Source: Candidatus Saccharimonadota bacterium
Lineage (GTDB): Bacteria > Patescibacteriota > Saccharimonadia > Saccharimonadales > UBA4665
DNA: 36,977 nt
Assembly: GCA_018062785.1 (NCBI GenBank)
Contig: JAGORO010000010.1
Span: 1 to 36,977 of the forward strand
Direction: 5' to 3'
Below, piece after piece: positions 5,193 to 22,136 of the stretch. Each line of letters opens with the position of its first letter. Positions within the stretch are counted from its first letter, which is position 1. Position numbers and translations under genes: made by a program. The notes below the pieces were generated by a model that worked only from the letters and a program-made list of their open reading frames with translations, ran no database searches and had not been told where the DNA came from.

Positions 5193-6350
5193 ATGAAAAT
5201 AGGTTTAATCTGTCCGTACAGCCTCACCAAAGGTGGTGGCGTGCAGGAAGTCGTAAAAGAATTGAGTCTCGAGATGACGAGGCTTGGTCATGAGGTTGCG
5301 ATTATTACTCCCCAGCCCAAAGAGCCGTACGTCGATAAACGCTTTAGGGTTATTTTTCTGGGGTCTTTAGCGGATTTTAAATCCCCGACAGCCACTACCG
5401 TTCAGGTAAGCGCGAGCGTACTCACGGACGACATCGATGCCGTTCTGGAGCGTGAGCAGTTTGATGTTTTGCACTTTCATGAACCGTGGATACCGGTACT
5501 CAGTAGACAGATTCTTGCCCGAAGTAATACGGTCAATGTGGCTACCTTTCATGCCAAGCTACCAGAGACAATGGCGTCGCGGGCTATGGCAAAAATTGTT
5601 ACCCCGTATACAAAGCCGCTTCTAAAATATATCGATACCATCACGGCAGTGTCTCCTGCGGCAGCCGAATATGTCGGTACACTCACCGACGACGAGATCG
5701 TTATTGTACCGAACGGCATAAACCTACGAGACTTTCGAGTAAAACATGAAGTCAAGCCAAAGGATAGCAAGAAGACTGTGCTGTATGTGGGACGTCTAGA
5801 AAAACGTAAGGGCGTTAAATACCTTTTGCTTGCACACAAAGAACTTTTACGCAAAATGCCCGATGTACAGTTGCTGCTAGCCGGCGATGGGGTAGATCGT
5901 CTTAAGCTCGAAAGAATGGTCGAGGAGCTAGAAATTAACAATGTAGAGTTCTTGGGCTTTGTATCGGACAAAGAGAAGAAACGACTTTTGGCCTCGGCTG
6001 ACCTTTTTTGTTCCCCTGCTCTCTTCGGCGAAAGTTTTGGTATCGTCCTGCTCGAGTCTATGGCGAGCGGTCTTGTGACCGTTGCAGGCAATAATCCGGG
6101 CTATGAAAGCGTGATGAGTGGACTTGGACAACTTTCGCTTGTCAATCCTCGTGACACATCTGAGTTTGCAGATAGGCTACATCTGCTGCTGACCGACCAA
6201 GGCCTGCGGGCACTCTGGCAAAAATGGGCCAAAAAGCACGTTGCACAGTTTGACTACAACACGGTGGCGCGGCAGTACCTTAGCGTGTATGAATCGGCTT
6301 GTGCTAAGCCAACCAATGAAATACGTGCTAAACGACAAAATCGGCTATGA
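5193..6350 (+). CDS. GT4 glycosyltransferase, PimA-like
   Basis: A 385-aa GT-B glycosyltransferase of family GT4. The N-terminal domain starts with MKIGLICPYSLTKGGGVQE, the acceptor-side glycine loop typical of PimA-like mannosyltransferases, and carries HFHEPW. The C-terminal domain has YVGRLEKRKGVKYLL, LLLAGDGVDR and the donor-binding ESFGIVLLESMASG (E-x7-E). PimA relatives transfer mannose from GDP-Man to phosphatidyl-inositol at the inner membrane face; the acceptor here is inference only. The gene ends in TGA overlapping the ATG of the next GT (ATGA), so the two are translationally coupled. Confidence 0.9.
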   Translation: MKIGLICPYSLTKGGGVQEVVKELSLEMTRLGHEVAIITPQPKEPYVDKRFRVIFLGSLADFKSPTATTVQVSASVLTDDIDAVLEREQFDVLHFHEPWIPVLSRQILARSNTVNVATFHAKLPETMASRAMAKIVTPYTKPLLKYIDTITAVSPAAAEYVGTLTDDEIVIVPNGINLRDFRVKHEVKPKDSKKTVLYVGRLEKRKGVKYLLLAHKELLRKMPDVQLLLAGDGVDRLKLERMVEELEINNVEFLGFVSDKEKKRLLASADLFCSPALFGESFGIVLLESMASGLVTVAGNNPGYESVMSGLGQLSLVNPRDTSEFADRLHLLLTDQGLRALWQKWAKKHVAQFDYNTVARQYLSVYESACAKPTNEIRAKRQNRL

Positions 6351-7501
6351 AATCACTAAGAATTGGCTTTGTTCTCGACGGCGGCCTCGACTCGCCAGAT
6401 GGCGTGCAGCAAAATGTCTTAGCCTTCGGTGAGTGGCTGAGGTCAAAAGGTCACCAAGTGTATTTTTTGGTTGGCGGCGAACCGAAGCTCCGAGTCGAAG
6501 GCGCGTACGCAATGGCTCGAAATATCTCGGTCAAGTTTAATGGCAACAAGCTTACAATACCCTTACCGGCCAATAAGAAGCATATTGCGCGCACATTGGC
6601 CGAGTTACGGCTCAATATTCTACACGTTCAGACCCCCTATAGCCCACTCATGGCTGGCAGGATCATAAAGGCCGCGCACCATGAAACGGCGTGCGTCGGC
6701 ACGTTTCACATTCTGGCCTATTCCAAGTTGGTGGTTTGGGCTAATGTTGGCTTGGCTTTGTTAAATTTGCCCACGCGGCGTTTTTTTCGGCTGCACCTAG
6801 CAGTTTCTGAGCCGGCAGCTTTGTTCGCAAAAAAGACATATGGCTACTCTTGCCAGATTATGCCAAACCCATTTGCCATGCGGCGCTTTGAATCGGAGCT
6901 GCTGGCTAGCGCTAGCCAGACTCGATCGGAAGTATCGATTGTGTTTTTGGGCAGACTTGTGCCGAGAAAGGGTGCGTTAGAATTGTTGCGGGCCATCACC
7001 TATTTGCGTGATGATTTAGGAGTTAGCTCTGGGTTTCGCGTACGAATTGGAGGTAAAGGCGAGCAGGCTGAGGCTCTTCAGCGCTACGTTAAAAAACACC
7101 GGCTCGAATCTGTAGTTACCTTTGTGGGCTTTATTCCCGAAGAAGACAAGGCACAATTTTTGGCCAGCGCTGACATTGCGGTTTTTCCTAGTACGTCTGG
7201 CGAGAGTTTCGGCATTAGCCTACTAGAAGCCATGGCGGCTTCACGCGGAGTTGTACTTGGTGGCGATAACCCTGGCTATAGATCTGTGATGGCGCCAAAA
7301 TTTGAGACACAGTTGATCGACCCCAAAGATCCGAAGAAATTTGCACAGCACCTCTTTACCTGGATTAGGGATGCGCCAGCTCGGCATAACGCTGCAGTTT
7401 CCCAGGGTAGCTATGTGAAAAGATTCGATATTGAAACTCTGGGACCCGCCCTGCTCGAGTGCTACGCTCAAGCATTGCAAATGCGCAATAAACAGGCATA
7501 A
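6347..7501 (+). CDS. GT4 glycosyltransferase (second)
   Basis: A 384-aa GT4 enzyme and diverged paralogue of its upstream neighbour. The same landmarks occur: IGFVLDGGLDSPDGVQQNV at the N-terminus, HVQTPYSP, FLGRLVPRKGALELL, RIGGKGEQ and the E-x7-E donor site ESFGISLLEAMAAS, followed by GGDNPGYRSVM. The start overlaps the previous stop by 4 nt. Two coupled GT4 genes acting in sequence recall PimA/PimB-like or MgtA-like glycolipid steps, but neither acceptor nor sugar can be assigned from sequence. Confidence 0.9.
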   Translation: MKSLRIGFVLDGGLDSPDGVQQNVLAFGEWLRSKGHQVYFLVGGEPKLRVEGAYAMARNISVKFNGNKLTIPLPANKKHIARTLAELRLNILHVQTPYSPLMAGRIIKAAHHETACVGTFHILAYSKLVVWANVGLALLNLPTRRFFRLHLAVSEPAALFAKKTYGYSCQIMPNPFAMRRFESELLASASQTRSEVSIVFLGRLVPRKGALELLRAITYLRDDLGVSSGFRVRIGGKGEQAEALQRYVKKHRLESVVTFVGFIPEEDKAQFLASADIAVFPSTSGESFGISLLEAMAASRGVVLGGDNPGYRSVMAPKFETQLIDPKDPKKFAQHLFTWIRDAPARHNAAVSQGSYVKRFDIETLGPALLECYAQALQMRNKQA

Positions 7502-7509
7502 TTAAGCAC

Positions 7510-8631
7510 ATGGGAAAACTTATCAAAAAAGAAGATGCAGACTTTGAAGTCTCCGTTTCTACACATAGTATCGTTCGTTTTATCGCAATTGTCCTTGGGG
7601 CTGTTTTGTTGGTTCGCGCCGTACAGCAGGCTTCACATGTCCTGACTCTTATTGGCGTTGCATTCTTTTTAGCGCTGGCGTTGAATGCACCCGTGCGTTG
7701 GCTAACCAGAAAGCTACCGGGCAAGAAACAAAGCCGGCGTAACTTGGCGACTGCTCTGTCTATTGGCCTCATTGTGGCGCTGCTCATAGGATTTTTGCTG
7801 ACAATCGTTCCGCCGCTTACAAAGCAGACAATCAACTTTATACAGGCCGTACCTTCTCTTGTTGACGATACGCGCAACGGTAGTGGCCCTATAGGGGAAT
7901 TTGTTTCCCGCTACAACTTAGAGGATCAAGTCGACAAACTCTCTGGCCAGCTATCGAGCCGAGTTGGCAATATTGGTACGTCGGCACTGAGCACGGTTTC
8001 GAGAATAGGTAGTAGCCTCATTTCTTTACTAACAGTCTTGGTGCTAACAGTTATGATGCTTATTGAGGCGCCGGCTTGGCGTAAAGTACTTGAAGACATG
8101 GTACCTACCAAACAGCAAGTGCACTACCAAAAGCTTGGACGAGAGATGAACAAAGTTGTTCAGGGGTATGTTAATGGTCAGGTACTCTTGGCTGGCATGG
8201 CTGCCATATTCTTATTGCCTGTATTTATTGCAACCGGTGTAAGCTACCCAGTCGCGTTAATGGTCGTGGTATTTATTTGTGGCCTTATCCCAATGGTAGG
8301 CCATACCATAGGGGCGTTGATATGCACGCTGGTTGCACTGTTCCACTCCTTTACGGCGGCAATTATTGTCATGGGGGTATACATTCTGTACCAACAGGTC
8401 GAAAACTATGCCGTACAGCCCAAAATACAATCAAACTCCACCAATATGTCCCCGCTGCTTGTTTTTGTTGCCGTTTTGCTCGGCGGAAGTTTTGGCGGTC
8501 TCTTAGGAGCATTGGTTGCGATACCTGTCGCAGGTTGTATTAGAATCTTACTCCTCGATTACTTTGAACGACGTAATATTTTGAGCAGGTCGACCGTGAG
8601 CGACGCTAAAAAATCCGGTGGCACTATCTAG
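7510..8631 (+). CDS. AI-2E family transporter (PerM/UPF0118)
   Basis: A 373-aa polytopic membrane protein. Hydrophobic segments lie at about 21-40, 43-62, 76-100, a central pair at about 165-185, and a C-terminal cluster from about 220 to 350, with an amphipathic extracytoplasmic region around 105-165. The motifs GYVNGQVLLAGMAAIFLLP, GLIPMVGHTIGA and Q-Q-V-E-N-Y-A-V-Q-P-K-I are characteristic of PF01594. Members are proposed exporters (AI-2, Na+/H+); substrate prediction is unreliable. It starts 8 nt after the second GT and is the last gene of the cluster. Past its stop there is only a small hairpin (CTAGGT-CTGT-ACCTAG, about 8633-8648) before the convergent cysS. Confidence 0.9.
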   Translation: MGKLIKKEDADFEVSVSTHSIVRFIAIVLGAVLLVRAVQQASHVLTLIGVAFFLALALNAPVRWLTRKLPGKKQSRRNLATALSIGLIVALLIGFLLTIVPPLTKQTINFIQAVPSLVDDTRNGSGPIGEFVSRYNLEDQVDKLSGQLSSRVGNIGTSALSTVSRIGSSLISLLTVLVLTVMMLIEAPAWRKVLEDMVPTKQQVHYQKLGREMNKVVQGYVNGQVLLAGMAAIFLLPVFIATGVSYPVALMVVVFICGLIPMVGHTIGALICTLVALFHSFTAAIIVMGVYILYQQVENYAVQPKIQSNSTNMSPLLVFVAVLLGGSFGGLLGALVAIPVAGCIRILLLDYFERRNILSRSTVSDAKKSGGTI

Positions 8632-8679: not shown

Positions 8680-10074
8680 CTATGCCCTATACCACAACGT
8701 ACCGTTAGCGGTGTCATTCAAGAATATGCCTTGAGATTGAAGTTCGTCTCGAATAGTATCGGAGGTCGCCCAGTCTTTTGCGTTTCTGGCATCTTCCCTA
8801 GATTTAATACGCATCTTTTGCTCGTCGGAGATATCATTGACATCGAGTTGTATGCCGAGAAGGCTATATATACTAGCAAAAATCGCATCGCAGCAGGCTG
8901 GGCACACATTGCCCTTTTGTATTTGGTCGCATGCTTCGTCTATAACCTGTAGCGCGTCGTTGGTGGCCAAATCGTTAGAAAGCGATTGCAGAATTTTATC
9001 CTCAAACATATCTCCACGATAATCAGTTTGTTTGGCGGGAAGTTTATCTTCTTGCCAGCGAAGCGCGGCTGCTTCTTGCCAGTTTTTGCGTCGGTTTGCA
9101 GCCGCTTCCAAGTTATCCCAGGTGAAGTTTCCCTCTGTTCTATAGTGCTTCCCAAATGCAAATACCTTAAAATCGTCGAGGCTATAACCCTTCTCAATAA
9201 TGTCCTCTAGCGTGTAAATAGTACCGAGGCTTTTGGCCATTTTTTGGCCATCCACCTTAACGTGATTATTGTGTACCCAGAGCTGACTAAACGGTTTTTC
9301 GGTAACCGATTCGGTCTGAGCAATCTCATTCGTGTGGTGGACGGGAATATGATCGATACCCCCTGTGTGTATATCGATCCGATCACCCAGAGTTTCGCGG
9401 GCGATGACAGAGCACTCGAGGTGCCAGCCCGGAAATCCAATGCCCCACGGGCTATCCCACTCCATGTCTCGCTTGGCGTTCGCTGGGCTAAATTTCCAGA
9501 CCGCAAAATCGGTGATGTTTCGCTTGCCCTCTACCGACACGCGAGCGCCGGCCTCGAGCCCTGCAATGTCGAGCCGAGCGAGCTTGCCATAGTCGGAGAG
9601 CTTTGATGTGTCGAAGTACATACCATCACCAAGTATCTCGTAGAGGTAGCCTTTTTGGTCGAGAATTTCTGCAAATTGAATTTGCTGCTCTATCATGTCG
9701 GTCGCACGCGTTAAGCTAGTTGGCCTAATGAGTGCGAGTAGCTCGTATGCTTCGTGGTCAGCTATAGCGCTGTATTTATTGGCTATATCCCAAGCAGTGA
9801 CGCCCTCGCTGCGCGCCCCTTTCTCCATCTTGTCTTCGCCGTTATCGTCGTCGCTGGTTAGATGACCAACATCGGTAATATTTTGTGTTCGCTCGACCTT
9901 GAACCCCTCTGCCTCGAGGGTGCGTACTAGGACGTCCCAGTATACATAGCCCAACCAGTTGCCGATGTGCGGCTGGCTATAGACAGTTAGACCGCAGGTG
10001 TAGATCTTGACAGCCCCTTCTTGAAGTGGCTTGAGCTCTTCGACAGAGCGGCTCATGGTGTTATATAGCCTCAT
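8680..10074 (-). CDS. cysS: Cysteinyl-tRNA synthetase
   Basis: A 464-aa class I aminoacyl-tRNA synthetase that charges tRNA-Cys in the cytoplasm. It shows the HIGH-type signature (TCGLTVYSQPHIGNWLG, with zinc ligand Cys27), WHLECSV with a second zinc cysteine, GGIDHIPVHHTNEIAQTE and the KMSKS loop as GQKMAKSLGT. The C-terminal anticodon domain is short but complete, ending in GTLWYRA. Its ATG overlaps the TGA of the upstream DHH gene (ATGA), so translation is coupled. Its length is typical for the family. Confidence 0.97.
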   Translation of the reverse strand: MRLYNTMSRSVEELKPLQEGAVKIYTCGLTVYSQPHIGNWLGYVYWDVLVRTLEAEGFKVERTQNITDVGHLTSDDDNGEDKMEKGARSEGVTAWDIANKYSAIADHEAYELLALIRPTSLTRATDMIEQQIQFAEILDQKGYLYEILGDGMYFDTSKLSDYGKLARLDIAGLEAGARVSVEGKRNITDFAVWKFSPANAKRDMEWDSPWGIGFPGWHLECSVIARETLGDRIDIHTGGIDHIPVHHTNEIAQTESVTEKPFSQLWVHNNHVKVDGQKMAKSLGTIYTLEDIIEKGYSLDDFKVFAFGKHYRTEGNFTWDNLEAAANRRKNWQEAAALRWQEDKLPAKQTDYRGDMFEDKILQSLSNDLATNDALQVIDEACDQIQKGNVCPACCDAIFASIYSLLGIQLDVNDISDEQKMRIKSREDARNAKDWATSDTIRDELQSQGIFLNDTANGTLWYRA

Positions 10075-11069
10075 GCAACGTCCTCATGAAGCAACAACTC
10101 ATTTACCAATCGCAATAATTCGTTTTTGGCTTCCTCGTATGGCCTGTCGGTAGTCTTAAAGCCACTGGCGTAATCATGTCCGCCACCACCCATAGCCTCT
10201 GCCAATTTGCCGCAGATAGGGTAACCAAGGTTGGCTCGTAGCGCTCCGGTAACACGGCCATCATCATAGCTTTTAAGTACTATCGCTATAGCGATATTCT
10301 TGATTTGGAGCATGTCGAACTGAATAAGGGCTGCGGGGTTATACAGAGGACTGAAGGTGTTGATTTCGTCTTGGGGTACATGTACTAGGGCAACTTTTCC
10401 GGCAGTATGAAGCTCGGTTTTAGCGATAAGATCGCCCTTGTAGCGGTAGATACTTTCGGGCATTTTGCCGTATTCTCGGCGCAATTCCTCTAGCTTACTG
10501 CGATCTGCGCCCACTTCGGTCAATGTTGCCATCAAACGGTAGGTAGTGGTGGTGGTGAGGTTATTTGTGAGACCCTGAGTGTCTCCGAGAACGGCGGCCA
10601 TAATGCATTCGGCAGCGTGGGCCGTGAGCGGCCAGTTTGATTCGGTTGCGAGCGAGTAAATCAGTTCACCCGTTGAAGAAATTGAGCCATCAACAAGCTG
10701 CAGATCGGTAAAGTCGAGCGGGTTTTCGACCGTGGCGTGATGATCTAGGACGACACAAGGCTTTGATTGTACTGTTGCCATACCACCAGAGGTGCATAGT
10801 TTATCAAAAAGCGTGTAAGTGCTCGCGTCGACAATAATCGACAAGTCAAAACCTTTCGGTAGTTCCTGTTCGATCCTATCCCACCCTTCGAGGTAGCGGA
10901 GGTATTCAGGCACCTGAACGCCACAGTACAGGGCAACGTGCTTACCCTGCTCTTCGAGGATTTCCTCGAGCGCAAGTGCAGAGCCAAGCGAGTCAGCGTC
11001 TGGATTATCAGCCTGAATAACTACTATATTTTTTGCATCTTGCACTGCTTGGGAGATCTCTTCCTTCAT
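10071..11069 (-). CDS. DHH/DHHA1 phosphoesterase, NrnA-like
   Basis: A 332-aa DHH-superfamily protein. The N-terminal domain carries ADNPDADSLGS (metal-binding D-x-D), IIVDAS and DHH within VVLDHHATVENP; the C-terminal DHHA1 domain carries AMGGGGHDYASGF. The layout matches NrnA-type enzymes, which degrade nanoRNAs and dephosphorylate 3'-phosphoadenosine 5'-phosphate. Single-protein members also act on cyclic dinucleotides, so the exact substrate is not certain. It is the first gene of an operon with cysS. TACAAT (11077-11082) ends 7 nt before the ATG, so the transcript is probably leaderless. Confidence 0.9.
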   Translation of the reverse strand: MKEEISQAVQDAKNIVVIQADNPDADSLGSALALEEILEEQGKHVALYCGVQVPEYLRYLEGWDRIEQELPKGFDLSIIVDASTYTLFDKLCTSGGMATVQSKPCVVLDHHATVENPLDFTDLQLVDGSISSTGELIYSLATESNWPLTAHAAECIMAAVLGDTQGLTNNLTTTTTYRLMATLTEVGADRSKLEELRREYGKMPESIYRYKGDLIAKTELHTAGKVALVHVPQDEINTFSPLYNPAALIQFDMLQIKNIAIAIVLKSYDDGRVTGALRANLGYPICGKLAEAMGGGGHDYASGFKTTDRPYEEAKNELLRLVNELLLHEDVA

Positions 11070-11114: not shown

Positions 11115-11723
11115 TCATAGTAACGTCTGACGATTCTCGAGCGCACGACCCAAGGTAATCTGGTCAGCATATTCGATATCCACACCGATCGGCAGGCCTC
11201 TGGCTAGGCGCGTTATTGAGATGTCGAGGCCAGCAAGTTGCTGTTGGATATATAGCGCAGTCGACTCACCCTCCATGCTTGCGTTGGTTGCTAGGATGAT
11301 CTCGGTCACGCTGTCGGCTTCGATACGTTGTACTAGCTCTTTGATGTGGAGCTGCTCGGGCCCGACGTTATCTATGGGCGACACTAAACCACCCAAAACA
11401 TGGTAGGTACCCTTGAACAAAGCTGTTTTTTCTAGGGCCAAAATATCGAAAGGCTCGGCAACGACAGCGACGATAGTTTTATCTCGCTTAGGATGAGTAT
11501 ATAGTGGCGAAACTTCATCACTCGCATCAATGAGTGCAAATGTTTTCGGACAAACCTTGATACCAGCATGAAGATGCTCGAGCGCGCTAGAGAGTTGCTG
11601 TGCTTTGGCTGGGTCGTGCTTGACCAGAAAATAGGCATACCTCTCGGCAGTGCGCGACCCTACTCCAGGCAAATTTCCTAGTGCATCAATCAGTTTTTCG
11701 AGTGAGCTTGGAAGCAAGTTCAT
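11115..11723 (-). CDS. recR: Recombination protein RecR, zinc site degenerate
   Basis: A 202-aa RecR. It has an N-terminal helix-hairpin-helix (LIDALGNLPGVGSRTAERYA), a remnant zinc-finger segment, and a Toprim domain (VVAEPFDILALEKT, ILATNASMEGESTALYI) ending in the RecR signature LARGLPIGVDIEYAD. RecR works with RecO/RecF to load RecA at gaps. The oddity is the zinc finger. Canonical RecR has C-x2-C...C-x2-C, but here the segment reads VCPKTF...EVSPLYTHPKRDK: only the first cysteine remains and the others are Thr, Ser and Tyr. Zinc binding is therefore unlikely. It follows ybaB by 6 nt, the classical ybaB-recR pair. Confidence 0.95.
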   Translation of the reverse strand: MNLLPSSLEKLIDALGNLPGVGSRTAERYAYFLVKHDPAKAQQLSSALEHLHAGIKVCPKTFALIDASDEVSPLYTHPKRDKTIVAVVAEPFDILALEKTALFKGTYHVLGGLVSPIDNVGPEQLHIKELVQRIEADSVTEIILATNASMEGESTALYIQQQLAGLDISITRLARGLPIGVDIEYADQITLGRALENRQTLL

Positions 11724-14727: not shown

Positions 14728-16209
14728 TCATAGCAGTTCGGTGCTGCCAAAAATATTGTTAATGGTTGAAATATCTTTCTGCATTGGTTTGTCGGGGTCG
14801 CTTTCCTGTAGCTCGAGAGCGATGAGAATCGGTTTGCCAGAAACCTGCTGAACGGTCGACTGTAATACCTCGGCATTTTTTGCTGTATTAAGCTGCTTGA
14901 AGTGGAATTTAAACCGCAGAAGTAGCCGGAGTGTGTCACCGTCCAGAGACGGCTTCGCCATACGAGCAACGCCATAGAGGGTATTTTGTGTGCGCTTTAT
15001 TTTGTTTAGCGTTGCCTCCCAAATCTCGCTCGCTTCGAGACTGGTTGGCGCAGGCGACACCGCAGGTTTTTCTGCCTGCACAGTACTTGCAGATGTGGCT
15101 TCGGCTTTGATGGCTACTATCGGTGGTGTGTCGGGAGGCCTCTGTTCTACTGGGGTGGCTTGGGACGCATTCGTCTTGCTTTTGGCCATTTTGGCGGGTT
15201 GCGTTCGTGGTGTCGGGGCGTTTCTCGTCTCTTGTTTGCTTGCTTCGGGCGCCTTAAACGCATGCGACAGCAGGACTACCTCCAGCAATTGCTTGGGCTG
15301 CTGGGCGCTGGGTATATTTAGTAAATCTCTGAGAAGTTCGAGTGAAGTGTACGACGAAAAGACGTTCATATTGGGAAATACGATCGCTTCGCGAATTTTG
15401 GAGGCAAGCTGAAGCGAGATAATTGGCGCATCGTAGCCTGCCTCGTATAACGTCGAGAGAGCCTCAAGTAGTTCTACATGGTTATGGTTGTCGATTGCTG
15501 AAGCGATGGTGTCAATGGCATCCGCAGGAGCTCTGCCGAGAAGGTTTTCGACATGAGCTTTCGTTACTCTTTCGCCACTTGCTGCGGCCTGATCGAGCAG
15601 GCTGATGCTATCACGAAAACTCCCTTCGCCATGCTCCGCGATAAGTTTAAGGGCGTCGTTTTCGACAGAGATGTTTTCTTCGTTAGCAATGGTCTGGAGA
15701 TGCCCGACAACTTGCTCGAGCGGTATCGGACGAAAACTATACCGCTGCGTACGACTGATAATCGTCTCTGGCAGCTTATGCATTTCGGTCGTAGCTAAAA
15801 TGAAAATAACGTGTGCTGGCGGTTCCTCTAGTGTCTTAAGAAGTGCGTTAAAGGCCTCTTTTGTGAGCATATGCACTTCGTCGATGATAAATACTTTGTA
15901 TTTGGCGCTAGCGGGCGCAGCGTGAATGTGGTCACGCAAATCTCGAATCTCATCGATCCGCCTATTGCTGGCAGCATCAATCTCGATAATATCTAGGTGG
16001 GTATCTTCGCTATACGGCAGCTTATTGATCTCGTGCGCAAGAATGCGGGCAATAGAAGTTTTGCCGACACCTTTCGGACCTGTCAGTAAATAGGCATGGC
16101 TAAGCTTATCACTTTCGATGGCTCGTTTGAGCGTCGTCGTGATATGCTCTTGCCCGATGATCTCGTCCATGCTCTTAGAACGATATTTACGATATAGTGC
16201 CTTCCCCAT
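14728..16209 (-). CDS. dnaX: DNA polymerase III subunits gamma/tau
   Basis: A 493-aa clamp-loader ATPase. It begins MGKALYRKYRSKSMDEIIGQ, a standard DnaX N-terminus, with Walker A in LTGPKGVGKTSIA, Walker B/DEAD-type DEVHMLT and sensor-1 ATTEMHKLPETIISR. Canonical DnaX has a four-cysteine zinc module after Walker A; here the region (ILAHEINKLPYSEDTHLDII) has none. A Pro/Ala/Thr-rich linker (about residues 330-410) precedes a tau-like C-terminal domain. I set the start at 16209, not at an upstream in-frame ATG at 16296, because TATACT at 16224-16219 lies 9 nt before it. It ends in TGA. Confidence 0.93.
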   Translation of the reverse strand: MGKALYRKYRSKSMDEIIGQEHITTTLKRAIESDKLSHAYLLTGPKGVGKTSIARILAHEINKLPYSEDTHLDIIEIDAASNRRIDEIRDLRDHIHAAPASAKYKVFIIDEVHMLTKEAFNALLKTLEEPPAHVIFILATTEMHKLPETIISRTQRYSFRPIPLEQVVGHLQTIANEENISVENDALKLIAEHGEGSFRDSISLLDQAAASGERVTKAHVENLLGRAPADAIDTIASAIDNHNHVELLEALSTLYEAGYDAPIISLQLASKIREAIVFPNMNVFSSYTSLELLRDLLNIPSAQQPKQLLEVVLLSHAFKAPEASKQETRNAPTPRTQPAKMAKSKTNASQATPVEQRPPDTPPIVAIKAEATSASTVQAEKPAVSPAPTSLEASEIWEATLNKIKRTQNTLYGVARMAKPSLDGDTLRLLLRFKFHFKQLNTAKNAEVLQSTVQQVSGKPILIALELQESDPDKPMQKDISTINNIFGSTELL

Positions 16210-16218
16210 TGCTCTATT

Positions 16219-16224
16219 AGTATA
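16219..16224 (-). promoter_or_regulatory. -10 box of dnaX, leaderless
   Basis: Minus-strand TATACT with exactly 9 nt before the ATG at 16209. No convincing -35 is seen 17 bp upstream (TCGTTA). The spacing predicts a 5' UTR of 0-3 nt and excludes the upstream ATG at 16296. Confidence 0.5.
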
Positions 16225-16379
16225 GTCGGTTGAGCATCGAATAACGAGTGTAGTAATTACATTGCATGCAGCCTTTTGGCGCGGCAAAGCTGACACTTTG
16301 ATTTGTACTCGACGGTAGCTTCGCGGCTATTCACTGCGATGCACCAGAAGTATAACCTCGCTATAAAGTTAGTAGATAT

Positions 16380-16889
16380 CTACAGGGCGGCTTCGAGGGC
16401 GGCCCACTCGGCGGCACTATCGTCTTCTGGGAGGTTTACGCTGACTTGGTCGCCAGGTTTTGCCTTGAAGTAGGTAACGCTGGCGAGCAGCACACGGAAT
16501 TCTTTTGTTCCAACAGTCACGAAGTAGTGGCCATTCTCGAGCTTAAGTAGGCCAACAACTTGTTTTCGCGGTATTGGGCCAATTTGCTTGTAAAGGAAGG
16601 CGCCGTCGTCGGCAATGGTGAGCTTGAGGATGTCGCCCTGTACGAGCTTGGACTTACTGGCGTAGTTGGCAGGCACTGGATAGGTTTTGCCGTCGCTACC
16701 GACCATATTTTGGCCGTCGAAGACACCTTCGATCACTTTGCCGAGCGGCTCGTCTGAGGGTTTTACCTGCACAGTAGCATCATCGCCTACGAGGCTAATC
16801 AAAAGCTCGTTGGCGGCAGCAAGATTGGTCTCTGCTTCCTGAATAAGTGTGCGCAGTCTTTTGATTTGTTTCTCTGGTACCTCGGCCAT
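16380..16889 (-). CDS. Conserved-looking hypothetical protein, 169 aa
   Basis: I cannot name the family with certainty. Residues 1-32 form a helical, coiled-coil-like N-terminus (KQIKRLRTLIQEAETNLAAANELL). A beta-rich body from about residue 48 carries FDGQNMVGSDGKTYPVPANY, LVQGDILKLTIADDG and GPIPRKQVVGLL, ending in an acidic tail. Similar small proteins in CPR genomes are sometimes labelled L7/L12-like, but this one is clearly not rplL, which lies at 22137-22517. The 5' UTR of about 80 nt contains a GTGTAT-TGG-ATACAC hairpin and TTAGGA before the ATG. A TTGACT -35-like element lies near 16976-16981. A role in translation or nucleic-acid binding is conceivable but unsupported. Confidence 0.75.
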   Translation of the reverse strand: MAEVPEKQIKRLRTLIQEAETNLAAANELLISLVGDDATVQVKPSDEPLGKVIEGVFDGQNMVGSDGKTYPVPANYASKSKLVQGDILKLTIADDGAFLYKQIGPIPRKQVVGLLKLENGHYFVTVGTKEFRVLLASVTYFKAKPGDQVSVNLPEDDSAAEWAALEAAL

Positions 16890-17002
16890 TTCTATGTCCT
16901 AACTCTGTTTCTCTCTCACTTTTATGTCGTGTATCCAATACACCTTACCATAAAGGTAACACACGCACTCTAGCAAGTCAAAATAATTTTTCTGTAGACT
17001 GA

Positions 17003-17641
17003 TTACAGGGGTTGAGCGTCTTTGAACTGGTCGGCAATTTGTGCTGGTGTAATCTCTTTCCACGAGTTATCTGCACAAGATTTTGTGGAACCTTGATTGT
17101 TAGTGTAGTCCTTCTGTGCAAAAACGTGCATCACATGGCCTTTGCCATCTATATAATCGAGCTGATACTCTTCCCAAGGATTGAATGGAGTTGCGCTCGC
17201 GCCGCTAATCCGCACGGGCTGCTCGCAGGTCATCGTCTGCATACCCTTATCTTTGATTTTGGTCGATCGAATGCTGTACCTATCGGCTGAGGCACCTGAC
17301 GGTTCGAAAGTCACAGGGGCCTCTTGGTAGCTTAAGCTCTCGGTGATGTCATTCTTGGGTAGGCTAATGTTAAGGCCATAGAATTCTAGACGCCCCGTTG
17401 TCGAGTTATATCTTGGCGCAAGCCACGGGTCATCCTCTGCCTGTTTTTCGGGCATGGCTATGTCACTTGCCTCTGACTCAATGTCATTGTGCTGAGCATT
17501 GTAGGCCTTGTCCAGCAAAAAGAAATTAGCACAAAGCGACAAGAATAACGCTCCACAAAGCAATGCTACTAATGATCGTGGAGTACTTTTTGAATGAGGT
17601 TTTTTAGCTTGGTTTTTTGCTGCTGGAGGTTTTGTCTTCAT
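17003..17641 (-). CDS. Single-pass membrane protein, unknown function
   Basis: A 212-aa protein with a basic N-terminus (about residues 1-22, rich in Lys and Pro), one transmembrane segment (about 24-44, LVALLCGALFLSLCANFFLL), and an extracytoplasmic domain with two cysteines (MTCEQPV and KSCADN) that could pair. No family was recognised. TATAGT (17654-17649) lies 7 nt before the ATG, implying a leaderless mRNA. It is transcribed divergently from the AAA/vWA operon, whose promoter lies about 90 bp away. Confidence 0.7.
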   Translation of the reverse strand: MKTKPPAAKNQAKKPHSKSTPRSLVALLCGALFLSLCANFFLLDKAYNAQHNDIESEASDIAMPEKQAEDDPWLAPRYNSTTGRLEFYGLNISLPKNDITESLSYQEAPVTFEPSGASADRYSIRSTKIKDKGMQTMTCEQPVRISGASATPFNPWEEYQLDYIDGKGHVMHVFAQKDYTNNQGSTKSCADNSWKEITPAQIADQFKDAQPL

Positions 17642-17734
17642 ACCCGTAACTATACACCATTTACGTTATGGCACACTGGACTCGCTACCTGTCGCCCACT
17701 ACTCGTGCCACGGCAGTATGCACAAGAATAAATA

Positions 17735-17763
17735 TTGACAAAATTAAACAAAAGAAGTATAAT
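17735..17763 (+). promoter_or_regulatory. Perfect consensus promoter of the AAA/vWA operon
   Basis: TTGACA (17735-17740), exactly 17 bp, and TATAAT (17758-17763): both hexamers are perfect sigma70 consensus at optimal spacing. The ATG at 17773 follows after 9 nt, so the mRNA should be leaderless. It is the strongest promoter in the window. Confidence 0.9.
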
Positions 17764-17772
17764 AGAACTATT

Positions 17773-19290
17773 ATGTCAACCATGGAGTGTCTCGAGACAA
17801 ACGAATGTAGGAAGAACTGCAATGTACTACGGATGTTAGATGTGGCTCAGCGGTCTAGCATGCCCACCGCAGAGCTGACCGCGGACGGTAATGACTGTGC
17901 ATATGCCGACACCTTGCAGTTAGGCACCTTTGAGCCAACTCTTTTTTCCAACTCGGACTTAGCGACGAACGTTGCGGCGTCGCTAGAGAGAGTATTGCGT
18001 ACCGGTAACGAAGTCCGGGGCGCTATTGGACAAGTTGGAAATGAGTTACATGTTGCGTTATCGGAGCGTTCCAAGATAGATATGGCTCTTGGTACATTGT
18101 GGCAGCAGTATGTGGAAGCGTCGAGATCGGACCGCAAACTGACAGATGTGGAGGTGAACTACTTCTCTACCGAGCTTGCCAAACAGGCTCAATCGTCGGC
18201 GGACGTCATTGCCAACCTGGGGGTTGGGCAAGAAACCATAACGTTTGCTCAGGCAATTCTGGACGCAAGGTCCTTGGAGTCAATGGGCTTGGTGCTCGAT
18301 AGCGGCATGAGTAGGACGGTAACGGAGCTTTTTGCGAACGCAAACTCTGGGCAGTCAACGCTGCTCGTCGGCGACAAAGGTATCGCCAAAACCTTGGCTG
18401 CCAAATACGTCTCGGCCGCTTTCGCTCCAAATGGCAGGCCCCGCTTTATTAGTGGTGATGGTAGTCTTATGAAGGACGAATTTATTGGCAAGGTGGAGCT
18501 GAGTGTCGAGGACGGGGCAACCAAAACTGTTTTTCGCGAAGGTGTTCTTGTGGAGTGCATGGAGCAAGGCATCCCACTCGTTTTGGATGAGGTGAATCTG
18601 ATTGACCCAGCAATTGCTATGCGTCTGCAAGACATTTTGCTCCGTAAACCGGGTGATGTTATAACACTTCAAGAAGATGGTGGTCGGCCCATCACAATCA
18701 AGCGAGGGTTTACGGTGTTTGCAACGGCAAATGAAGCCAGCGAGCGCTACCAAGCTCGGGCCATACTTGATCCCGCATTCCGAGATAGGTTCGACACCCT
18801 TCCCATTGAGTATCCAGACGGTGGGACCGATATACTAGATAGCACCGTAACGCCAGAGGCGCTGACGCGGCTGGCATACGCAACAATCATTTCGCCTGAC
18901 GGCATAGCTAACCCTCGGGTGAGTGCAGACGATGCGCTGTGACTTGCTCGGCTCGCGCATGCCTCCCAGCAGTTGTATGCCAAGCCCCCAAAAGACATTA
19001 ACGGCAACTTACCTGGACGAGCGACTGCAAATTTTGTCGATACAGAGACACCGGTCCTTAAGGACTGCATAACTCCTCGAAAGATGGTCGAACTGCTCAA
19101 GCGTGTTTGTGACGGTAGTAATCCTTACGATGTCGGCGCAGGTTTGCGAGGAGTCGCGTATGAAGCTATCGGTGGTATGCAACACCGCTCGGATAGAGAG
19201 ACCATGCATGCGATTATTCTGCTTCTGTCGAACGATCCTGCAAGTGTTCAGACGGCTGCGGTGATGGATAAAATGAGGATCAAGCGATGA
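17773..19290 (+). CDS. MoxR/CobS-type AAA+ ATPase, interrupted by an in-frame TGA
   Basis: Read through, the frame encodes 505 aa; the TGA at codon 390 (18940-18942) stops it at 389. The start at 17773 is fixed by the perfect promoter; longer starts (e.g. 17668) lie upstream of it. Landmarks: Walker A GDKGIAKT (200-207), Walker B VLDEV with D272/E273, sensor-1 ATANE (317-321) and R-D-R-F (337-340) as candidate arginine-finger region. These fit the MoxR branch of AAA+ remodelling ATPases, closest in style to CobS/NorQ. After the TGA the same frame continues without another stop for 115 codons (LARLAHASQQLYAKPP...) and ends in a TGA overlapping the next ATG. That tail looks like the C-terminal lid of the same protein, so TGG (Trp) or CGA (Arg) was probably the original codon. 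Nonsense mutation, sequencing error and readthrough all remain possible. Confidence 0.85.
18940..18942 (+). other. In-frame TGA inside the AAA+ gene
   Basis: Codon 390 in the frame set by the start at 17773, with context GATGCGCTG-TGA-CTTGCTCGG. The reading frame is open on both sides, from 17773 to 19287. Other genes in the window end in TGA, so a general reassignment does not explain it. Confidence 0.9.
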
Positions 19291-20129
19291 GCTTTAATCC
19301 ATTCGATGCAGAACATTCCGTACAAACAAGCCCCGAGATTCCCGCTGGTTTTATTGCTCAGAGTGTAAATGACGGGACTGCGAGTGTAGTTGGCGAAACA
19401 AGCCCAGCGAAATCTGCTAGTGGCGCATCGCTCGCACGGCAGATTGCGGACATATACGTCGATATGTGCATCGGTGACCAGCAAAAGACAGTAGCCCCAT
19501 TTCCGCGCTGTGATACTATTGACCGTTTGCTTGAGGCTGCAGAGCTAATCGAGAAGTCTCCTCTAGGATTTGGACACGCTAACAGCAATGTAAACAAGCA
19601 CAGGCTAGTCGCCAATCAAGAATGGTCGGATTTTTTTGCTATGACTGTTGCCCGTTGGCGCGAAAAACAAGGCCTGGGTAGTAGTCAGGCTACCAAAATT
19701 TCTCTTGATCTCCCAGAATCAAAGTTATCACTGCCACTTTTCCCAAAAGTTTTGGGGCTAGACATAGCAATTACCGGTGATGTTACCGGTGAGCTTGCAC
19801 GAGGCGCTTTGTACTCTAGGTTTATAGTAGATGGCAGCGTGCAAAAGAGCGCCGTGATTGGCCAAAGTGCAACGAACTGCGGCTTTATTATTAAGGGTGA
19901 TTTCATGGCAGACAACAGCGGTTTAGTCCCCAGAAGCTTCAGTGATGCAACAGAAATTGATGTTCATATAATGGGTACCGCCCCGACAGGTGCCATCGGA
20001 CCTGTTGAAAGCTCAAAAATTCATTGCGATAACCCTACGATTAATTCCTACCGCGAAGTGGTTGGGATGACCTGTTGGTCTACGGGGTCTGGCAACGTGA
20101 TTAGTGGGCTGCAAACAAAGTACCGATGA
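19287..20129 (+). CDS. Unrecognised 280-aa protein of the AAA/vWA operon
   Basis: The family is not recognised. The N-terminal 45 residues are low-complexity (Ser/Thr/Ala-rich). Residues about 50-130 look helical, with a motif-like EWSDFFAMTVARWREKQG. The C-terminal half (about 140-280) is beta-rich and Gly/Ser-rich (SLPLFPKVLGLDIAITGDVT, KSAVIGQSATNCGFIIKGDF, EIDVHIMGTAPTG), as a beta-sandwich or beta-solenoid might be. No membrane segment or catalytic motif is seen. It overlaps both neighbours by ATGA (start on the AAA stop, stop on the vWA start), so the three products are made together. It may be an adaptor or substrate of the ATPase/vWA pair; that is inference from position only. Confidence 0.8.
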   Translation: MSFNPFDAEHSVQTSPEIPAGFIAQSVNDGTASVVGETSPAKSASGASLARQIADIYVDMCIGDQQKTVAPFPRCDTIDRLLEAAELIEKSPLGFGHANSNVNKHRLVANQEWSDFFAMTVARWREKQGLGSSQATKISLDLPESKLSLPLFPKVLGLDIAITGDVTGELARGALYSRFIVDGSVQKSAVIGQSATNCGFIIKGDFMADNSGLVPRSFSDATEIDVHIMGTAPTGAIGPVESSKIHCDNPTINSYREVVGMTCWSTGSGNVISGLQTKYR

Positions 20130-22072
20130 CGTGGTTTTCATCTCCGGAACAGCAAGCACCATTTGGGCAGCAATCCTTAACGGAAATTGCAACTCGAGTA
20201 GCCCGAATATTTGGCCACAATGGTCTGCGCGTTGAGGTGCATGATGGCCAAGGTTGGGCCACGCTTCGTGACGCAAACGGCATTACCCTACTCGCTGATC
20301 CTTCAATGCTAGTTCCGAAATCTATGATAGACGTCGATGGTGAGTGCGTCGATCAGGCCAGTATTCCCTCCCAATATCCCATGTATGGCATCTGCCACGA
20401 GCTGGGGCATATCGAGGATTATTTGGATCCGGTAAGCAGCTACGACACTCTTAAGAAGAGGTCGTCTTCGGAGCATTTCTTCTGGAATATCCTTGACGAT
20501 GGCGTTATAAATAATCGTCTACGACGTGTTCCGGTGCTCAACACACTTACCGACGAGATATACGAGAACACCTTGTTCCCAAAGTCCGATCTTCGCCAAA
20601 AGCCAAAACATGTCCAGCTCATGTACGGATACTTGCTCCGCCAAGTTACCCCCCAAAGGTCTATTGTGCTGTCCGATGATGTTGGCGAATTGCTCAAAGG
20701 TTTGGAGCGGTTCGAGGATACGAATGGGGATGTCATCAATGTTTACGCCGAGCTGATAAAGCGCGAAACGACCCTAGTGGAGCGTAGGCGGCTTGCCGAA
20801 GCGTCCATTCTGCCTCTATATAATCAACTCAAGGAAGAGGACCGCCAGCAGAAGCAGGACTCGGATAAAAATTCGGGTAGCGACACGTCCGATGGAGATG
20901 CTACCGACCAGAATGAAAGCGATAATGATACTGGTAGCAGTAGTGGCAACAGCGTAGAAGATGGGTGGGAAAATGACTACGCCGCTTACGAGCAATCAGC
21001 TGGTTGCTCTCATGGCGACCACGAGGATACAACGCCAGATTCATATGATTCTAACGCCGAAGATGAGGGTTCCAGCGAGGCTAGTCAAGCTGGCGAACAG
21101 ATGCGTGACGCCATGCGTGAGGCAGCCAAGCAAATTAGCGAGCAGCGCCAAAACGAGAATGATTCGGATAATCCTAACAACACGCAAAGTCCTTCAAAGG
21201 ACGCTGTTGCGGAAGCAGCTGGCAGTATCCAAGGCGAGCTTGGTATCAGTTTTGACAAAGCCTACCTCTATGCCGAATCTATCCAGCGATTGCGGGGCGC
21301 AATCCATGAGGTAGCCGAGGCGCTCCAACAATTGACAGTGCCGGCTGTTGAATATTCCAGCCCTAGATATAGGCGTAGGCCATCTGCATGGGGCAGTACG
21401 CTGTCTCCACGAGACTTGTTCAAGGTTGTGATTGCTCAGCAAACAGAAGATCAGCAGCCTGTAGTATGGAAACCGACCGAAATTAAGACTCGACGAGAAG
21501 GCTACAGCTTTAATGGTCTCGACATTCATCTGCTTGTTGATGTAAGCGGCTCGATGCACGGAGCAAAAGCTGAGGCTGCAGCGGACTGCTACGTACTTCT
21601 TGCAGAGGGTATTGATTTGGCTCGAAAGCTTGCCGCCGACCGCAATCCGTTGGCGCCCAAACCCGATGTGCGCCAGCAGACAATTGCCTTTGGTTCTGCG
21701 GCCGAAGTCTTGTCTCCTATTGCCCATACCGCGGTAGCGCAAGATAAGGGGGCGGCATTTAGCACGCTGCTCGATGCAAATAGCGGAGCTACGTACGTGG
21801 CCGATGCGATTCAAAGTGCAGCCCAAGTCGGCGCGAAGTATCCAGAAAGAACGCAGCTTGTGTATATTATCTCCGACGGTAGCTTTTCGGACAGTTCGGA
21901 TGCTACAAATGCGCTCCGAGCTTTGGGCCCGAATGCCTTTGCGGCGCAATTTGTCATTCAATCGCTGGGAACTCGGCCGATTACTCCTTCCTCGGCACAC
22001 GTGCAGGACGTGCTAGAGTTGCCTTCTCAGTTAAAGCAACACCTAGAACAAGTAGTCGCAAGCTTAGTTTAG
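20126..22072 (+). CDS. Zincin-like HExxH protein with C-terminal vWA domain
   Basis: A 648-aa protein. Residues 1-230 form a metallopeptidase-like domain with C-H-E-L-G-H (His91, Glu92, His95) followed by FFWNILDDGVINN (about 118-130). This resembles the N-h-L-E-D-x-R-I-E segment that follows HExxH in CobT/NorD-like vWA proteins. Residues about 245-375 are a low-complexity acidic linker (Asp/Ser/Asn/Glu-rich). A helical segment (about 380-420) leads into a vWA domain with MIDAS D472-x-S474-x-S476 (DVSGSMHG), a Thr in SGATYVADA and IISDGS. MIDAS plus HExxH, next to a MoxR-type ATPase, indicates an ATPase-driven chelatase or remodelling partner; a magnesium/cobalt chelatase role is unlikely because no large CobN/ChlH subunit is present here. 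The operon terminates just downstream (22088-22116). Confidence 0.88.
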   Translation: MTWFSSPEQQAPFGQQSLTEIATRVARIFGHNGLRVEVHDGQGWATLRDANGITLLADPSMLVPKSMIDVDGECVDQASIPSQYPMYGICHELGHIEDYLDPVSSYDTLKKRSSSEHFFWNILDDGVINNRLRRVPVLNTLTDEIYENTLFPKSDLRQKPKHVQLMYGYLLRQVTPQRSIVLSDDVGELLKGLERFEDTNGDVINVYAELIKRETTLVERRRLAEASILPLYNQLKEEDRQQKQDSDKNSGSDTSDGDATDQNESDNDTGSSSGNSVEDGWENDYAAYEQSAGCSHGDHEDTTPDSYDSNAEDEGSSEASQAGEQMRDAMREAAKQISEQRQNENDSDNPNNTQSPSKDAVAEAAGSIQGELGISFDKAYLYAESIQRLRGAIHEVAEALQQLTVPAVEYSSPRYRRRPSAWGSTLSPRDLFKVVIAQQTEDQQPVVWKPTEIKTRREGYSFNGLDIHLLVDVSGSMHGAKAEAAADCYVLLAEGIDLARKLAADRNPLAPKPDVRQQTIAFGSAAEVLSPIAHTAVAQDKGAAFSTLLDANSGATYVADAIQSAAQVGAKYPERTQLVYIISDGSFSDSSDATNALRALGPNAFAAQFVIQSLGTRPITPSSAHVQDVLELPSQLKQHLEQVVASLV

Positions 22073-22087
22073 TGCAGTCACAATACG

Positions 22088-22116
22088 AAAAGAAGCCCTT
22101 TGGTGGGCTTCTTTTT
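22088..22116. terminator. Bidirectional terminator between the vWA operon and rplL
   Basis: AAAAGAAGCCC (22088-22098) and GGGCTTCTTTT (22105-22115) form an 11-bp perfect stem with a 6-nt loop and T runs on both strands. It closes the AAA/vWA operon on the plus strand and rplJ-rplL on the minus strand. Confidence 0.9.
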
Positions 22117-22136
22117 CAGTACAATGACTAGAACTA

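Follow-up and report, generated by a model that had tools for sequence, protein, structure and literature searches.

We analyzed a 36,977-nucleotide stretch of DNA (contig JAGORO010000010.1 of assembly GCA_018062785.1; here called the window) from a Candidatus Saccharimonadota bacterium, a member of the Patescibacteria, and describe a three-gene operon at positions 17735 to 22117. Sequence, co-occurrence, and fold establish that its first and third genes encode a core composed of a MoxR/CobS-like AAA+ ring ATPase and a vWA co-chaperone that also bears a zincin-like domain. The additional gene that accompanies this core is a recognition module, which in some distant relatives is hypermutated by a diversity-generating retroelement (DGR) or fused to the ATPase. 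These properties point to a molecular machine for sensing rather than to an enzyme for metal insertion, and conflict sensor or effector appears to be its likeliest use. We propose that the constant AAA+/zincin-vWA machine and its exchangeable recognition module form a Patescibacteria variant of MoxR-vWA conflict systems, a reading that we hold to be evenly poised.

Results

The ATPase and the zincin-vWA gene were found in the identical 7 of 93 family genomes and were neighbors every time, for which the chance is about 1e-10. The pair recurs sparsely across the order and the phylum. Gene 3 (20126 to 22072; this and all other features of the operon lie on the forward strand) encodes a protein of 648 amino acids (aa), in which domain search, alignment, and predicted structure delineate a zincin-like N-terminal domain, an acidic linker, and a C-terminal vWA domain. 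The HExxH and NILDDGVIN motifs, the acidic linker, and the MIDAS-bearing vWA domain (DxSxS) that an initial annotation, made from the sequence alone, had described in this protein were all found. The zincin-type metal motif HELGH (residues 91 to 95; 20396 to 20410) lies on the predicted active-site helix, and the invariant Asp125 of NILDD (20498 to 20500), on the helix after HExxH, is a candidate third metal ligand. In an alignment of 18 divergent homologs, H91, E92, H95, and D125 were among just 14 invariant columns. The N-terminal domain is predicted to be alpha/beta, with three strands followed by helices 83 to 99, which bears HELGH, and 114 to 132, which bears Asp125. From motif and model, the domain resembles a gluzincin whose third ligand is Asp. 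A profile search of the domain against the PDB gave nothing significant; the minigluzincin proabylysin had an E value of 0.18.

The vWA domain contains the MIDAS motif DVSGSM (residues 472 to 477; 21539 to 21556), with D472 and S476 invariant. Its best match in a fold search was the MIDAS domain of Rea1/midasin (Z score, 21.3), and the vWA domain of NorD was also recovered (Z score, 18.5). The partner protein, encoded by gene 1 (17773 to 19290; 505 codons including an in-frame TGA described below), is an AAA+ ATPase of the MoxR/CobS/NorQ/midasin type. It matched AAA_5 (1.1e-15), and a profile of its relatives matched midasin, NorQ (1.8e-7), and CobS among PDB entries, in agreement with its earlier description as MoxR-like. 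Sequence and alignment place the Walker A motif, GDKGIAKT, at 18370 to 18393. At the N terminus, alignment with homologs revealed a Cys cluster, C6-x5-C12-x3-C16...C42 (17788 to 17898). The C-x5-C-x3-C pattern and the fourth Cys are common to the closest homologs of the ATPase (loci L014 to L016), and Cys-rich starts are likewise present in L017 and L051. The cluster is possibly a metal (Zn) or Fe-S site or sensor, judging from these residues.

The genes that adjoin the pair differ from locus to locus. In the window, gene 2 (19287 to 20129) encodes a fast-diverging 280-aa accessory protein with a helical N terminus and a predicted beta-solenoid C terminus. The initial annotation could not place this protein, which indeed had no match in Pfam, NCBIfam, or PHROG. 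Its repeats resemble the beta-solenoid of FwdC in a weak match (best domain i-E, 0.056). AlphaFold2 predicted strands at residues 136 to 249, where the predicted local distance difference test (pLDDT) score was about 62 to 86, for a whole-model mean pLDDT of 54.8; a fold search with this low-confidence model found nothing better than an E value of 1.3. According to the model, gene 2 probably encodes a beta-solenoid protein. Only L014 and L015 (genomes G088 and G017) contained homologs. These likewise lie between the pair and are 26 to 28% identical to gene 2, versus 41 to 50% for the flanking genes, reflecting a faster divergence. An NPF(D/R) motif is present near the N terminus of the middle proteins (19287 to 19310 in the window; also L014 and L015) and of the DGR-targeted accessories of L059 (2193 to 3005); from its sequence, it might be a docking motif that these proteins share, or it might be coincidental.

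The initial annotation had suggested that the middle gene may encode the client or an adaptor. It did lie between the pair in all three of its occurrences, but the pair was found without it in 4 of the 7 family genomes. We therefore restate the idea as that of a variable slot, which holds different recognition-type proteins, often multiplied or hypermutated. The slot contains beta-solenoid-like proteins in the window, L014, and L015; CLec-like proteins in L016, L051, and L059 (a call that for L016 and L051 comes from inspection of the C-terminal pattern and not from a domain match); propeller-type repeat proteins, encoded by separate genes, in L020 and L052 to L054; an LRR protein in L060; and four related genes in L017. 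Ten related genes, at least one of them WD40, surround the pair in L058. The very position between the ATPase and vWA genes is occupied by a solenoid-type gene in the window, L014, and L015 and by a nonhomologous propeller-type gene in L052, L053, and L054.

Accessories of the propeller and the LRR types have in common a helical N terminus of 65 residues (hhalign probability, 85%, compared with no more than 3.7% in any of 60 shuffles), and a second N-terminal segment is common to the L058 and L125 accessories (hhalign probability, 83%). No common N-terminal segment was found between L058-type and propeller-type accessories. At the sequence level, such a pattern would be expected if the docking segment were shared and the recognition domains attached to it were exchanged.

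Some individual loci have additional features. In L058 (773 to 15073), at least eight tandem paralogs of about 310 to 380 aa precede the vWA-ATPase pair and two follow it; they have a common N terminus and differing C-terminal domains. In L056, an accessory adjoining the pair (7443 to 8234) bears its own zincin-like motif, HEMYH. The assignment of a gene at the edge of L061 as an ATPase C terminus was not supported, and the accessory of L122 did not yield an assignment.

Comparisons of template repeats (TR) with variable repeats (VR) uncovered DGR-type variation at several phylum-level loci. In L059, the TR located beside a reverse transcriptase (RT) differs from one VR at 21 positions, all 21 at a template A, and from the C terminus of the accessory gene next to the vWA gene at 30 positions, 20 of them at a template A. 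Mismatches fall at a template A in 18 of 18 cases in L124 and in 12 of 13 in L123, where the VR is the C terminus of the ATPase that is paired with the vWA gene. In 5 of the 14 phylum-level loci, an RT lay no more than about 5 kb away, versus about 1% expected from RT density; that density is itself an estimate, based on about 230 RT pieces among 380 genomes.

The accessory genes of L051 (1298 to 2197 and 5589 to 6494) flank the ATPase-vWA pair in inverted orientation. They are identical over 360 nucleotides, after which differences fall mostly at codon positions 1 and 2 (18/20/7) in the VR, over the last 45 codons. This arrangement of the two sequences suggests gene conversion or exchange by inversion. 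No RT was found in the L051 genome, which is 86% complete. The DGR of L123 (4845 to 12398) and that of L124 (6624 to 14157), each with RT, Avd-like gene, and TR/VR, directly adjoin the ATPase-vWA pair, and DGR-type RT homologs occur in 117 of the 380 Patescibacteria genomes of the phylum sample. DGR variation is a feature of some branches of the system and not of the window copy.

The window operon is a single unit bounded by a promoter and a terminator hairpin. Its sigma-70-type promoter, TTGACA-17-TATAAT (17735 to 17763), matches at 12 of 12 positions and is the sole match with at most one mismatch across the window, where 0.16 was expected. The −10 box is 9 nucleotides from the ATG at 17773, so the transcript must be nearly leaderless. 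ATGA overlaps read from the sequence join genes 1 and 2 (19287 to 19290) and genes 2 and 3 (20126 to 20129), and an intrinsic-terminator-like hairpin (−18.5 kcal/mol; z score, −6.0) lies at about 22088 to 22117. The perfect promoter, the two ATGA junctions, and the strong terminator noted in the initial annotation were thus all recovered.

Together with a divergent gene, the operon constitutes an insert of about 5.15 kb (16985 to 22134) between rplL and the gene at 16380; rplL directly adjoins gene 16380 in the congeners G017, G019, G020, and G021. Genome G017, from the same genus, carries its own copy of the operon at another site, and in L016 the gene set is located near serine recombinases and ParB. 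The system is patchily distributed and moves horizontally in Patescibacteria. The divergent gene inside the insert (17003 to 17641) encodes a 212-aa protein with a hydrophobic N-terminal segment and no Pfam match.

All three genes announced by the initial annotation are present, but the ATPase frame is interrupted by a TGA that it had overlooked (codon 390; 18940 to 18942). This TGA leaves a 389-aa ATPase, and 115 more codons follow in frame up to the ATGA overlap. Six family homologs of the ATPase are open at this site and the window copy alone has a stop; the two closest homologs (L014 and L015) have at this position a Trp codon, one base away from TGA. Recoding of TGA as Trp was ruled out, since TGA is the terminator of 5 of the 32 window genes (gene 2 and those at 5193 to 6350, 10071 to 11069, 11115 to 11723, and 14728 to 16296) and therefore acts as a stop in this genome. 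Identity of the ATPase to L014/L015 is 30 to 32% in the N-terminal part, 63% in the AAA core, and 46 to 48% after the stop. Because the last value lies between the other two, any decay must be recent. The TGA may be a nonsense mutation or a single-base assembly error; as it truncates the ATPase after the AAA core, the window copy is possibly inactive.

Discussion

The pairing of a MoxR-type ATPase with a vWA protein stands as first described, and so does the view that the operon departs from the standard CobS/CobT and NorQ/NorD sets. The NCBIfam CobS model scored 24.4 bits on the ATPase against a cutoff of 558.55, CobT_C scored 13.9 on gene 3 against a cutoff of 21, and CobN was found in none of the seven pair-bearing genomes (controls were positive in 5 of 14; the genome is about 97% complete). 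NorQ-NorD, CobS-CobT, and midasin resemble the window system in having an AAA+ ring and a MIDAS vWA partner and are the best structural relatives of its vWA domain and ATPase, but they are devoid of the extra zincin-like domain.

The closest general parallel is with the MoxR-vWA ternary conflict systems of Kaur et al. 2020, which include VMAP, iSTAND, FtsH, and beta-propeller types and are recognized by a hallmark of a constant NTP-dependent core with variable neighbors (PMC7159879). Our findings follow this pattern, in that the pair is conserved and the genes next to it are highly variable. The constant MoxR-vWA core, the highly variable components, including DGR-diversified ones, and the patchy distribution are alike in both. 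In contrast to these systems, the vWA domain is fused here to an N-terminal HExxH domain instead of effectors or a propeller, and the ATPase is nearest to midasin, NorQ, and CobS. The vWA domain of gene 3 is C-terminal with no fused beta-propeller, unlike in the beta-propeller ternary systems, and Pfam and NCBIfam gave no VMAP, iSTAND, or FtsH match in the middle and accessory genes, part of the window genes having been scanned. Patescibacteria, in which the present system is found, were omitted from the multicellularity statistics of that survey (PMC7159879).

Dore et al. 2024 argued for a sensor role of MoxR-linked DGR targets, described DGRs of clade 5F from the candidate phyla radiation (CPR) and DPANN that had no conflict-system link or domains, and cited Paul et al. 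2017 for CLec-AAA targets in CPR (PMC10907252). In their DGR sensors, the VR lies in a CLec domain linked to a MoxR-type ATPase, and L123 and L124 are alike, with the VR at the ATPase C terminus. The two differ in that their CLec targets often contain a fused vWA domain, whereas here vWA usually belongs to a separate zincin-vWA protein and the window copy has no DGR. The zincin-vWA type did not appear in the parts considered of either Kaur et al. (PMC7159879) or Dore et al. (PMC10907252).

Several observations weigh against a conflict-sensing machine built on a zincin. The vWA proteins of L123 and L124 do not contain HExxH, and the HExxxH spacing seen in two of the 18 gene 3 homologs, L018 and L019, argues, as a sequence feature, against catalysis in every member. 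The fold search with gene 3 was filled by vWA matches and yielded no structural counterpart for the N-terminal domain, whose putative zincin assignment stands on the motif and the predicted secondary structure; the beta-solenoid call for gene 2 is weak. RT and pair are not enriched for co-occurrence at the genome level (5 of 14, versus 117 of 380), and physical linkage alone is enriched. Neither the window genome (G000) nor its close family relatives gave a match to an RT of the L059 type, so the evidence for DGRs derives from remote members of the profile family. PADLOC returned nothing for the three window proteins, and no known effector (TIR, caspase, or nuclease) was recognized in the loci examined. 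Finally, the stop codon in the ATPase counts here as well, since the window copy may be broken.

The main rivals are metalloenzyme maturation and assembly of a virion or other structure. In the former, the pair would be a CobS/CobT- or NorQ/NorD-like maturase acting on the middle protein or on a different enzyme, by metal insertion or by remodeling, and HExxH...D would be structural or metal handling. The profile matches of the ATPase to NorQ and CobS, the NorD-like vWA fold, the FwdC-like hint of a beta-solenoid in the middle protein, and the conserved Cys cluster of the ATPase are all in keeping with such a role. We nevertheless find it improbable given the absence of CobN from the seven genomes, the CobS and CobT scores far under cutoff, slot proteins that are unrelated, multiplied, or hypermutated, unlike an enzyme client, and the sporadic, mobile distribution. 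No nitric oxide reductase client was identified; norB and norC were not searched for. In the latter, a MoxR-vWA chaperone pair that is domesticated or resembles those of phages would assemble a filament or a tail-like or surface structure, the variable proteins being receptor-binding subunits for attachment to partner cells. In jumbo phages, Iyer et al. 2021 (PMC7824862) described a pair consisting of MoxR and a metallopeptidase-vWA protein and proposed that it acts in virion assembly. This pair and the MoxR-vWA pair of Acidianus two-tailed virus have the same two-gene architecture as the core described here. In the window, too, a metallopeptidase-like domain is N-terminal to vWA and a MoxR ATPase adjoins. 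Foldseek searches of predicted viral structures aligned gene 3 over its full length with phage VWFA/CobT-like proteins and also matched ORF892 of Acidianus two-tailed virus, and the ATPase matched phrog_249 (2.2e-25). Unlike the jumbo-phage pair, the present system is chromosomal and has a third, variable gene, and tblastn with the gene 3 protein found no match in 50,697 phage records; the vWA protein of Thermus phage P74-26 does not contain HExxH. Single-protein pattern searches with the gene 3 protein over genome contigs and viral contigs also gave no relatives. No structural, tail, virion, or secretion genes were recognized in the loci, and the accessories begin with charged or helical segments that, by inspection and with no predictor, contain no obvious signal peptides. 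We regard an assembly role as unlikely.

A separate explanation, which concerns this copy alone and fits whatever function the intact family has, is that the window operon is a decaying, nonfunctional remnant. The TGA in the ATPase and the recent insertion at a site that is empty in relatives favor it, but the promoter, overlaps, and terminator are intact, genes 2 and 3 are open, sequence beyond the stop has kept its 46 to 48% identity to homologs, and a one-base assembly error is possible. Decay is accordingly an account that we doubt.

Under the sensing-machine reading, and by homology with NorQ-NorD and midasin, an acidic peptide or partner would be docked on the ATPase hexamer through the MIDAS of the vWA domain. 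A variable non-self ligand, for example, a phage or partner-cell protein, would be bound by the recognition protein, which would be held via its short N-terminal segment. ATP-driven remodeling might then release, expose, or present the zincin domain, leading to cleavage of the target or dismantling of the recognized complex. We put forward, tentatively and in the expectation that it may well prove wrong, a Patescibacteria class of MoxR-vWA recognition systems, in which an AAA+/zincin-vWA protease-chaperone is gated by exchangeable, partly retroelement-hypermutated proteins that would act in the cytoplasm as antigen sensors directed against phages or partner cells.

CPR clade-2 DGR targets were reported to have no recognizable domains (Roux et al. 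2021, PMC8144416). If our proposal is true, some of these domain-less targets gain a machine. The linkage of DGR targets to an AAA+/vWA machine whose same slot may hold LRR, propeller, or beta-solenoid proteins makes the role of such hypervariable proteins directly testable, and it raises the questions of whether they bind the ATPase-vWA pair and whether ligand binding switches the pair on. Saccharibacteria can be cultivated on partner bacteria, so a role in host interaction or phage defense could be assayed.

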